Source: Oidiodendron maius Zn (lineage: Eukaryota > Ascomycota > Leotiomycetes > Myxotrichaceae). From it: DNA of 64,000 nucleotides. The notes beneath the pieces were generated by a model that saw only the letters and a list, made by a program, of their open reading frames with translations, did no database searches and had not been told where the DNA came from. The position numbers and the translations under genes were made by a program. Below are positions 5,001 through 9,376 of this stretch, piece by piece; within the stretch, counting starts at the first letter, position 1, and each line of letters opens with the position of its first letter. Location of the stretch: the NCBI GenBank assembly GCA_000827325.1, contig KN832871.1, positions 62,001 through 126,000 of the forward strand, written 5' to 3'.

Positions 5001-6368
5001 GTCCAGCTGAGCTAACGACTGCTGAACAGGCTTGTTCAAGGTTCCAAACAAGTCCGGGCCAGACGTGGTCTGGCCGTTTAAACCCGCAAATAAATTGCGT
5101 GCGGGCGTGGTTTGCTTGTTAGAACTCTCGAAAATGGTAGAATTTGTCGTAGCTGGCTTTCCGAAATTCGCGAATATATTAGCCGGAGGTGTTGATTGAG
5201 AGACTGGCTCTTCAGCTGCACCAAACTTTGGTGGGGATCCGTTGCTCGTGCTAGCTGCTCCATTCCCGTTTTGTTGTTGGTCTTGCCCTCCAAATATATC
5301 ACTTGCATTTTGAACCGGCTTCTGATTCCCGAACAATGAGCTAGCAGGAGACGGCGGGAACTTGGCATTGGCGAATATATTGGGCTGAGTGGCTGGCTGC
5401 TGTCCAAATGAAAAGGCACGTCCGGCCGGGGCAGGTGCCTGTTGAGGGGCCCCAAATAAATTGTTCGAAGGCTTGTTGGCAGTTGGAGCAGGAACGGAGT
5501 CTATGCTGGCCGAGGACGTTTTGGTTGAGCTTTGGCCAAAGACAAAAGGTGTGTTGGATGGTGCTGGTTTGTCCTGCGGTGCTGGAGACCCAAAATTGAA
5601 CACTGGACTTGGTGCTGCCGGTTGCGCAATGCCACCGAAAATGTTATTTACCGGCTTATCTTGACCCGGCTGGGCCGTGGAACTGAAGCTGGGGGCTGAC
5701 GAAGAAGGCTGAGATGAGAGAAAGGAGAACGGGTTGTTGGCGGGTTTATTGTCTTCGGCACCAGTGGAATTGAAATCAATCGTAGATGGCACTGTTTCCT
5801 TCGGCGTGCTAGATGGGAAGGTGAACGGACTGCTCTGCGTATTGGCCGTATTTGTAGAGCTGAAATTGAACACAGGCTGCGCTGGTGGCTGTGAAGTGGT
5901 CGACTTGAAGGAAAAAATGTTGTCCGTTGGTTTCGGTTGTGCGCTTGGTTGACCGAAAGGGTTGGGGTTCGAGCTCTGAGTGCCACCAAAGGCATTTGGT
6001 GTGTGGAAGAGTGCCGGTTGGTCGTTTGGGGGCTGGAAGCCTCTATTGCGACGCAAGAGCTCCTCTCCGGTGGTATCTGCCCTTGCATCCGCCTCATTCT
6101 CTGATATATCGGGCGACGAGAAGCTGTTACCAGACGTATTGCCGTTGCCGAACGAAGGTGAAGGAAAGGAGATGCTTCCGGGGGCAGAGAAGTCGAAGCT
6201 GCTCGTGGGTGGTGCTATGCCCCCAAACAACCCACCCGACCCCCCAAACTGCATCGACTGTTGCACGTTTCCATTCGACTTAAGGGGCATTTTCCGCTGC
6301 CTGCCCTTTGGTTGCTTGATAGTTCGTGTGGCCAGTTGTGCGGCGTTAGCGCGTTGTTGACCTTCCAT
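2002..6368 (-). CDS. NUP2: NUP2-type FG nucleoporin with C-terminal Ran-binding domain
   Basis: A nuclear pore protein that binds Ran and importin-alpha and aids import-complex turnover at the nuclear basket. It has two exons, 6368-4872 and 4815-2002, joined in phase 0 by a 56-nt GTATGC...TAG intron, giving about 1436 residues. The first 500 residues are low-complexity Ser/Pro/Asn/Thr sequence with scattered FG, FNF and FSF repeats. Around residue 755 lies KRKAEVQLTKDD, the motif NUP2/NUP50 proteins use to contact importin-alpha. Acidic and FG stretches follow, then a RanBP1-like domain in the last 120 residues (KALQWSSTGDTPW, VGPLRVLKHKETGATRILLR). A basic N-terminus (RTIKQPKGRQRK) is present. 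An in-frame ATG at 6425 is an alternative start. Neighbouring genes are unrelated. The importin motif sits mid-protein rather than at the N-terminus as in yeast and vertebrates. Confidence 0.9.
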
Positions 6369-7160
6369 GGCGACGGCTTCTGGCTCGACGCGACGGGCCC
6401 TTGTAGAGATAAGGCTCTGTATCACAAGTCCCCCTCGGTTGGAGAAGGGTTGAGATTAGGACCTCTGGGGACAGATATAGACCGGCTTGGGACGGGAGAT
6501 GGTCGATAGTAGGACTCGAGGTGACGGATCGCGAGTGGCCTGGTAGACGCTCATGTGGCTGTGGCAGGCTCGAGATGACGGTGTTGTTGGCGTGATAATA
6601 GGCATACACTAAATGCGCGGCATCTCGAATGCTCATGAACTACTCTGGGGCTGAGTATTCGAGATGCGGAAGAGATAAAATCGTGAAGTTGACGTTGGAA
6701 GTAGTCGAAGGCAGGTACGGGCATCCCTGACCTGAAGAAATTCATCACCACGAGGCATCAAGGCACCAAGGCAACCATAAGCCGCCAACAATAGGAACCA
6801 CGAACTAAACCACCCACCATTCGGGGCCGCGCTTCTGGACAATGGACAATAGAGCTATGAGCGAGGACTTTCTATTCACTATTGGATGTGCAGAGTTGTC
6901 CTTGTGATTGGGTTTGTATTTTTGGGGCTGAATAGATTGCTTCACTTAGATTGTACCAAGTCATGCCCGAATGATCTGATGTCATACGCATTCAGCGAGG
7001 GACCTCATTAGTACAAACAACATCAGGAATCGCATGCGCAGACAAGTGCACTAGACGGAACCCGTGCTGTATATACTCAGTTCCTAACAACAGGTTCAAT
7101 CGATTATCGTACCCGCCGTTACAGGCCCTCTCTGCAGCTTGACCTTGGACAACCCCCTTC
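6369..7160. other. NUP2 upstream region / SCP2 downstream region
   Basis: The part nearest 6369 should hold the NUP2 promoter and 5' leader. I see no clear TATA box. Several 60-95-codon open frames on the minus strand (6346-6842) lack any recognisable motif and are taken as chance. Confidence 0.5.
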
Positions 7161-7164
7161 AGGA

Positions 7165-7475
7165 TAGGCTCTCACGGTTAATACAAGAGTTTTATATCAA
7201 GATCTAAGTTACGCTATTAAAAACCTTGACTGTGCCATTTGCTTCAATCTAATCAAGGCTTAGTGATAGCTAGGCGGCTCTTTCCTAATATAGACTCTAA
7301 CTTCGTCACTAAGAGTTTTATACCAAGCGTTTTAGGTTACACTATAGAGCAATCAACTATAATACTTGTTTGCTTTCGCAGTAATTTTTAATTCTTATAC
7401 TTATTATACAAATTCAACACAATCAAAGCTTAGCAACAGCAGGACGGCTTTTGGCTAAAATAGGTTCTAACTTGG
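7165..7475. repeat. Decayed tandem copies of the SCP2 3' end
   Basis: About 60 bases at 7251-7310 resemble 7421-7480, the region that holds the SCP2 stop codon: both contain AATCAAnGCTTAG followed by GGCTnTTnnCTAAnATAGnnTCTAACTTnGTC. A further segment at 7168-7225 matches 7293-7350 (GAGTTTTATAnCAAG then GTTACnCTAT). The native gene therefore seems to be followed by two diverged partial copies offset by 170 and about 126 bases. The copies carry substitutions and small indels and are AT-rich. They do not encode anything continuous. Confidence 0.6.
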
Positions 7476-7981
7476 TCGCCTTCATGACATCACCCTTAAC
7501 CTTCAGCTTGCCAGACATGAACAATCGCTGCGCATTCGCTTTGCCAGCGACCAATTTTCCGAAATCGTCGTCCGAAAGGGCGAGCGTAACTGGCAGGTTC
7601 GCCGGGTTAGCTACGAGTCTCGAGGGGGGAAGATGAGGGACAACGATGACAACGGAATGGCTAGAGAATGCTCCTAGCCTCTTGATATCAAAATATATAT
7701 ATATTTAGACGCACCTGTAGGCTTGTCTCCCAGACCTTTTGTGACTTCACCCTTTGTCCTAAGATCGAGGTTCCAGCTTTCTGTCTCGCCGGCCTTGTTC
7801 TTCAGGGTGAAGGCAAAGACGGCATTGCCTTGCTTGATTGCGTTCTTGCGCTCGGCGTCGCTAGAGGCGAGAGTGCTGTTGATCACGTCGAAGGCCTCGG
7901 AGGCTGGGAAAGCAGCTGCCAGCATGGTAAGCAAAGGATGGCTCGTGTAGTCGCAGGGGATTTACGGTTCTTGAGAGACAT
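7423..7981 (-). CDS. Peroxisomal SCP2-domain sterol/lipid carrier protein
   Basis: A small SCP2-fold lipid-binding protein of about 127 residues that binds fatty acyl-CoA or sterols. It ends PAVAKL, and AKL is a type-1 peroxisomal targeting signal, so it should be a matrix protein linked to beta-oxidation. Three exons: 7981-7966 (only 16 nt, encoding MSLKN plus one base), 7915-7715 and 7589-7423; introns are 50 and 125 nt. Exon 2 gives FPASEAFDVINSTL and NAVFAFTLKNKAG; exon 3 gives TLALSDDDFGKLVAGKANAQ and RLFMSGKLKVKGDVMKATKL, the diagnostic C-terminal half. A second acceptor 21 nt upstream of exon 3 is also in frame and would add seven residues. Intron 2 contains an (AT)n run. The promoter has a CCGAGG hexamer. 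Confidence 0.93.
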
Positions 7982-8282: not shown

Positions 8283-8690
8283 AGGGTGTGCTACGTTCAC
8301 TGTGCTTCGGTGGGTTGTGAACAAAAACCCCGTGTCACATGCTATGGGGGAATAGCCTCCTCTCTTTCCATGGTTGATGCTGGAGAGGAGGAGAGGGTGA
8401 CAGAGCTCTTATCCGAGTGCCGGCTGTCTGTTCCATGGTAAGGAGGGAGAATCTGAGGTCGCGACGGTCGCGAGGCTCACCTGGTGCAGTGGTTGAGTCG
8501 GTCTGCCTGAGAGCGCGATGACTCGATGGCGATTGACTCTACCTAAGTCTCTCTCCACATATGCCCTCTCGAAGTTTCCCTGCACCGAGAATTGTGTGAC
8601 TGGCTTGCCGGGTGTTTGCCCGGTTTGCACTTTCGCCAAACGGCACGCTCGCTTGCAGAAGTTTGCACCCCACTAGCGCCATTGGAGAAT

Positions 8691-8698
8691 TATAAAAG
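8691..8698 (+). promoter_or_regulatory. TATA box of the U2 snRNA gene
   Basis: TATAAAAG precedes a long pyrimidine tract (8702-8742) that ends at the proposed U2 5' end near 8743, about 50 bases downstream. A TATA box followed by a CT-rich stretch is the usual layout of a strong fungal Pol II core promoter. No comparable element lies directly upstream of 8809, where an unspliced U2 would have to begin. Confidence 0.65.
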
Positions 8699-8742
8699 AA
8701 GCGCTCTTCTTCCTCTGCTTCCCTTTTTTTTCTTTTCTCTTT

Positions 8743-8990
8743 AGCTCTGTGAGTACTACCCTCTGCACCCCCATACTTTTACATAGCGCCTGTGCTGACT
8801 GTTCCCAGCTTTGCCTTTTGGCTTAGATCAAGTGTAGTATCTGTTCTTTTCAGTTTAATCTCTGAAATTCATCTACTTGATGAAACTTTGATTATACTTA
8901 TTTTTGTCCACCGGGAACTGACCTCCTGGCTTGCCAGTGTCAGATCCCACTGTGTCACTGGTATTACACTGTCTCCAGTTGACGCGACAC
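8743..8990 (+). ncRNA. U2 spliceosomal snRNA, with an apparent intron
   Basis: U2 pairs with the intron branch site and with U6 in the spliceosome core. The body is unmistakable: CTTTGCCTTTTGGCTTAG then ATCAAGTGTAGTATCTGTTC from 8809, with the branch-recognition GTAGTA at 8834-8839. Stem IIa follows, then stem IIb (TTCATC/GATGAA). The Sm site ATTTTTG is at 8900-8906. Stem III (GGGAACTGAC/GTCAGATCCC) and stem IV with CTGGTATTACACTGTCTCCAG (21 nt, split here as CTGGTATTACA + CTGTCTCCAG) end near 8990. The bases directly before 8809 do not match U2. Joining 8743-8748 (AGCTCT) to 8809 restores TCTCTTTGCC, the conserved 5' end that pairs with U6. The mature RNA would be about 188 nt, the usual U2 length. 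The core is certain; the 5' exon and exact ends are inferred. Confidence 0.93.
8749..8808 (+). other. Proposed 60-nt spliceosomal intron inside U2
   Basis: The segment begins GTGAGT, contains the branch site GCTGACT (branch A at 8798) and ends CCCAG at 8808. These signals are as good as or better than those of the coding introns in this window. Its removal rebuilds the conserved U2 5' sequence. It would fall about six nucleotides into the RNA. Confidence 0.75.
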
Positions 8991-9376
8991 CTCTCCATTG
9001 CCGCCTCGGGATAGCCCGGACTGTGAAGAAGAGCTGCTATCATTGGGAATGGGCCGGAGGATTGTAACGTTTTTTAAGTGGCTTAGTGCTTTGTGTGCAG
9101 TAGGACAGCATCCGTAAATATAGACTTGTTTAGAAATTTATTTATTAATACACCTACCTGGAGGTGGCGTAAACGTGGATGAAGATGAAATCGATCTATC
9201 CTGTAGTGATAAATTGAGACCATTTTCTGTGGTCATGAATTAACCCGTATATCATCTACATAACTTGCATGTCTTGAAGACGCTGGTACCGCCACCGAGC
9301 TCCGTTCGCGCTGAGACTTCTCACCAATATAACCTGCCAACTAGCCATCGACGGAGCACTGACGTCCTCGACCGCC
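8991..9376. other. Spacer between U2 and translin
   Basis: Downstream of U2 the sequence is mixed and then AT-rich (9120-9160). It should hold the snRNA 3'-end signal and the translin promoter. No further structured RNA or ORF is evident. Confidence 0.5.

Follow-up and report, generated by a model that had tools for sequence, protein, structure and literature searches.

The window, a stretch of 64,000 nt from a host genome of 45.9 Mb in 58 contigs, contains a U2 snRNA gene, which the Rfam model RF00004 matches at positions 8802–8993 over its full length (model positions 1–192) with 153 bits against a gathering cut-off of 46. The first seven bases of this match, TTCCCAG, are identical to the model consensus at 2/7 positions, and clear U2 homology runs from CTTTGCC at 8809 onward. 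This agrees with a sequence-only reading of the locus, which had held that the bases before 8809 are not U2. From 8809 to 8993, the gene comprises stem I, the branch-recognition sequence GTAGTA (8834–8839, by eye), the Sm site ATTTTTG (8900–8906, by eye) and the 3' stem-loops. On the upstream side, and likewise on the forward strand, lie a TAGCGC hexamer (8674–8679), a TATA box of the sequence TATAAAA (8691–8697) and a 25-nt pyrimidine run (8718–8742), which ends at the putative transcription start. The hexanucleotide AGCTCT (8743–8748) would then be a capped first exon forming part of the U6-pairing strand (helix II), and the 60 nt between it and CTTTGCC (8749–8808) carry the motifs of a spliceosomal intron. 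The positions assigned beforehand to AGCTCT, GTGAGT, the branch site, CCCAG and CTTTGCC were all confirmed in the sequence. The spliced RNA would measure 188 nt with the 3' end at 8990, the end chosen in the sequence-only reading and the basis of its estimate of about 188 nt, or 191 nt with the Rfam boundary at 8993.

The putative intron reads GTGAGT...GCTGACTGTTCCCAG, with AGCTCT directly 5' of it, and has GT-AG ends with a GTRAGT-type donor (GTGAGT) and CCCAG at the acceptor. Its branch site GCTGAC (8794–8799) fits the consensus RCTRAY, and the branch A at 8798 is located 10 nt from the intron end. This consensus is placed 6–36 nt before the acceptor, according to a passage in PMC5832005. 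The dinucleotide preceding the donor is CT, where AG is usual. To estimate chance expectation, a strict motif (GTRAGT, CTRAC, YAG) and a relaxed version of it were counted in dinucleotide shuffles. In shuffles of the 118 nt upstream, the strict motif ended exactly at 8808 in 15/200,000 cases and the relaxed motif in 630/200,000. In the real window, with both strands counted, the 127,764 positions include 5 ends of the strict motif and 96 of the relaxed one; the five strict occurrences compare with a mean of 1.33 and a maximum of 4 per window in 30 shuffles. The motif is thus rare yet occurs elsewhere too, and whether it marks an intron has to be decided from other evidence.

One such line of evidence comes from the promoters of sibling genes. 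As references we used U1a, U1b and U4, whose starts were taken as position 1 of the respective Rfam model, and the U3 snoRNA, whose start was set by eye; both U1 matches score under the Rfam cut-off (50.8 and 47.1 vs 69.5). The distance from TATA to start is 55 nt in U1a and U1b, 44 nt in U4 and 42 nt in U3. For U2 it is 52 nt if the start lies at 8743 and 111 nt if it lies at 8802, that is, at least 111 nt for a start at either 8802 or 8809. Similarly, the pyrimidine run before the start measures 23, 24, 17 and 19 nt in U1a, U1b, U4 and U3, compared with 25 nt for U2 at 8743 and 0 nt at 8802 or 8809. In U1a, U1b and U4 the start base is an A directly after this run. Among the 93 TATAWA sequences on both strands of the window, the one at 8691 alone is followed, 30–64 nt further on, by an A directly after 15 pyrimidines, while 14 As in the window are preceded by at least 15 pyrimidines. 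The geometry of U1a, U1b and U4 therefore fits a start near 8743, as had been proposed from the TATA box and the CT-tract. U3 adds consistency and does not count as an independent promoter control, because its start was set by eye and its Rfam match begins inside the presumed intron of that gene. The hexamer TAGCGC is found 5' of TATA in four of the five compared genes (U2, U1a, U1b and U3) and is absent at U4; taken alone it is weak evidence, since the U2 intron contains it as well (8784–8789) and the two strands of the window together have 15 occurrences.

Downstream of U2, on the same strand, a probable 3' processing element at 8995–9032 consists of CCATTG, a hairpin and TGAAGAAGA. The general arrangement, CATTG followed after 20–25 nt (a hairpin in U2) by TGAAGAAGA, is shared with U1a (L007), U4 (L009) and U3 (L020), so that YGAAGAAGA is present in four of the six genes. 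U1b (L008) has a variant, and none was found at U5. The shared element has the appearance of a signal for the 3' processing of fungal snRNAs. The only U5 match (L006:1501–1621, minus strand) does not follow the promoter pattern of U1, U2 and U4: its 3.1-kb locus contains neither a pyrimidine run of at least 15 nt nor the 3' element, and the closest TATAWA on its upstream side lies at a distance of 397 nt.

A further line of evidence is the pairing of U2 with U6. With 8748 joined to 8809, the sequence around the junction is UAGCUCUCUUUG, and the tail of one U6 gene, U6b (L005), contains CAAAGAGAAGCUA, the partner of the joined exons. We take the 5' part of U6b to resemble that of budding-yeast U6. 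The joined U2 sequence forms 12 pairs with this tail, with one bulge, at −14.6 kcal/mol; one of these pairs involves base 8742, which precedes the putative start. Counted from 8743, 11 pairs at −13.3 kcal/mol are left, compared with −6.0 kcal/mol for unspliced U2. Removal of 8749–8808 had been said to rebuild the helix II strand, and the joined form does indeed pair with the U6b tail, suggesting that the spliced form is under selection. Of the 169 upstream junctions tested, 8748 ranks first with U6b, with near-equal values at 8707 (−13.4) and 8791 (−13.1), and random 10-mers from the window equalled it in 140/20,000 cases. With the second U6-like gene, U6a, the best junction is 8753 (−13.2) and 8748 comes second at −11.3, a value matched by 237/20,000 random 10-mers. 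Helix II pairing by itself is not decisive; it gives strong support only in combination with the other evidence.

In addition, we looked at introns in the neighbourhood of U2 and in other small RNA genes of the same genome. The next gene 3' of U2 encodes a translin (best match among solved structures a Translin, 2e-75). It contains three introns (44, 47 and 45 nt), of which one has the same GCTGAC as U2, and its spliced product equals the database protein P0001 over 243/243 residues. Among 120 of its 860 homologues, the best named one, at 84% identity, is from Amorphotheca resinae, and most of those ranking next come from other Leotiomycetes; a metagenomic protein is 99% identical. By this one protein, the host would be a leotiomycete near Amorphotheca resinae.

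The U6b gene (L005:1452–1662; G000 C1, 2364923–2365133) has two apparent introns, at 1482–1530 (GTTAGT...CTAAC...TAG, 49 nt) and 1573–1626 (GTAAGT...TAG, 54 nt) of L005, one lying 7 nt before ACAGAG and the other at the base of the internal stem-loop. Used as a query, its joined exons match U6a without a break over positions 25–108 of 108 (87%), and U6b itself exon by exon. As only six query bases precede the first junction, the match to U6a gives firm support to the second junction and weak support to the first. U6a itself (L004:1501–1603, minus strand; G000 C3, 851693–851795) is intronless and has TATATA upstream, a T-run and a degenerate 5' stem; by sequence it could be a retrocopy, an older intronless gene or an active second gene. 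The U3 snoRNA (L020, minus strand; G000 C7, about 1789557–1789810), which has the same promoter type as U2, contains a 72-nt intron-like insert 14 nt from its start as set by eye. Introns in U3 are described as usual in Pezizomycotina and have been reported in Leotiomycetes in a passage of Canzler et al. 2017 (PMC5832005). By eye, the U1, U4 and U5 matches of this genome contain no insert. With its 60 nt, the U2 intron falls within the lengths of the seven introns compared, U2 included, of which those of U6b and U3 are putative like the U2 intron. In U2, the insert interrupts the U6-pairing strand; in U6, one insert is next to the ACAGAGA box and the other where the internal stem-loop begins.

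Neither the Rfam model nor DNA comparison revealed a second full-length U2, with the best 46 of 841 candidates scored in the 58-contig assembly. With the joined U2 sequence as query, no intronless copy that could be a trace of splicing was found; three other places match, and all of them start at query position 92. These other U2-like places are 3'-half copies, and one partial copy, L002, passes the Rfam cut-off narrowly (47.4 vs 46). The three copies (L021:5379–5517, L022:4263–4400 and L023:4208–4345) are 81–85% identical to window positions 8894–9034, including the 3' element. They are situated on G000 C3 within about 40 kb, each after GGCATA/TATGCC repeats. L021 and L023 also have a stretch of 0.9 kb in common (68%), whose orientation with respect to the U2 copy is opposite in the two; in L021 this stretch overlaps an open reading frame that is HNH-nuclease-like by eye. 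L022 contains an open reading frame (6278–7408, minus strand) resembling a Tc1/mariner-type transposase by eye, with 41-nt inverted repeats on either side at 6183–6223 and 7508–7548. Elsewhere, a pattern of the conserved U2 core was found at no locus in viral contigs and at two in genome contigs, both plant-like by eye and none fungal, and neither contains an insert at the corresponding place.

If the locus held no intron, U2 would start near 8802–8809 and the GT...AG stretch would be a coincidence in its leader or promoter. The covariance model can indeed set the first U2 base at 8802, intron-like motifs do arise by chance at the level found in the shuffled windows, and the TAGCGC inside the insert lies upstream of 8802, though without a TATA after it. 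However, a start at 8802 or 8809 would leave the TATA box more than 110 nt away and the start without a pyrimidine run, unlike in U1a, U1b and U4, and in shuffles the strict motif rarely hits the exact end 8808. The weak pairing of unspliced U2 with U6 points in the same direction. Promoter geometry and U6 pairing together led us to reject such a start, and we consider it improbable that the gene has no intron. A different possibility is that transcription starts at 8743 and the insert is mostly retained; an RNA longer by 60 nt would then function in the absence of helix II, and splicing would be partial or serve regulation. In budding yeast, helix II is redundant or can be dispensed with, and the insert leaves the branch-recognition sequence, the Sm site and the 3' stem-loops of U2 intact. 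Nevertheless, the splice signals are strong, and the complementarity of the joined form to the U6b tail speaks for the spliced RNA as the selected product, so that predominant retention appears very improbable.

The U2 copy in the window might also be silent or a pseudogene, with the real U2 elsewhere, as an assembly of 58 contigs may lack sequence and the search scored the best 46 of 841 candidates. This possibility had been raised beforehand as a test of the intron, in the form of a silent copy beside an intact second gene. The other matches are 3'-half copies only, and the copy in the window has a promoter of the sibling type, a conserved core, an Sm site and the 3' element; we therefore rejected a silent copy, which we regard as a most improbable explanation. 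What the sequence-only reading had taken as a U2 gene interrupted by a spliceosomal intron is favoured by the U6 pairing, the sibling promoter geometry, the lack of a second full-length U2 among the candidates scored, coding introns with similar branch sites in the neighbouring gene and further small RNA genes that apparently bear introns. We thus assign a probability of roughly 0.92 to the interpretation that the locus is a working U2 gene, the only full-length one found, with an ordinary U2-type intron six bases from the cap. From sequence, we infer its transcription start, the actual splicing and the use of the spliced RNA.

According to this interpretation, RNA polymerase II would start at A8743 and transcribe the intron as well as the 3' element. 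U1 would bind GTGAGT, about three bases from the cap, and pre-existing U2 would bind GCTGAC in the pre-U2 transcript. The spliceosome would then remove 8749–8808 and ligate AGCTCT and CTTTGCC, which would make the U2 side of the U2/U6 helix II complete again, and the RNA would subsequently be trimmed near 8990–8993. The making of U2 would depend on existing U2 only if the unspliced form were inactive. Given the partial redundancy of helix II, unspliced U2 may still be partly active, and the apparent circularity would then be less strict.

Considering U2 and U6 together, one possible view, which we hold with less than even confidence, is that both RNAs of the catalytic core are made only by splicing, that their introns were reverse-spliced into the spliceosome's own RNAs, and that U2 and U6 output is tied to current splicing capacity in a closed loop. 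Likewise, we propose only tentatively that a six-base capped exon is near the lower limit for donor recognition. For specialists, the surprise would be this cap-proximal exon and the fact that U2 and U6 both apparently bear introns in one ascomycete. If the U2 transcript is spliced, about three bases would separate U1 at the donor from the cap, and the gene would offer a natural test of a minimal capped first exon. Splicing of these transcripts would also make splicing a requirement for producing main RNAs of the spliceosome itself, a self-dependence whose feedback would be measurable. According to an old proposal, snRNA genes acquire introns through reverse splicing, and a spliced U2 would add an ascomycete data point at a U6-pairing position.

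Introns in snRNA genes as a kind have been known since 1989–1993. Those in U6 of Schizosaccharomyces pombe were reportedly described by Tani and Ohshima in 1989 and 1991. An intron in this spliceosomal RNA gene is also mentioned in a passage of PMC8917221, which describes U6 as a Pol III transcript, and introns in fungal U6 are attributed to Canzler et al. 2016 as cited in PMC5832005. The U6 introns of S. pombe and other fungi are, like the present one, spliceosomal introns in a spliceosomal RNA gene, whereas the host RNA here is U2, which is of Pol II type judging by its promoter. Fungal U3 introns are likewise spliceosomal introns in a small RNA gene, but U3 acts outside the spliceosome and entails no self-dependence. 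In the open-licence literature searched (titles and abstract openings, with 15 of 9,210 entries in one listing), no intron in an ascomycete U2 came up. As far as searched, three features are new: an ascomycete as host, a location within the helix II strand and a capped exon of six bases. The closest counterpart is the U2 gene of Rhodotorula hasegawae, which carries an mRNA-type intron according to Takahashi et al. 1993 (Mol Cell Biol 13:5613) as cited in PMC2586383. Both genes would thus have an mRNA-type intron in U2, R. hasegawae being a basidiomycete yeast. The R. hasegawae intron is reported to be about 60 bp long and to lie just downstream of the branch-site recognition region, whereas the one found here would interrupt the 5' strand of helix II, six bases from the cap.
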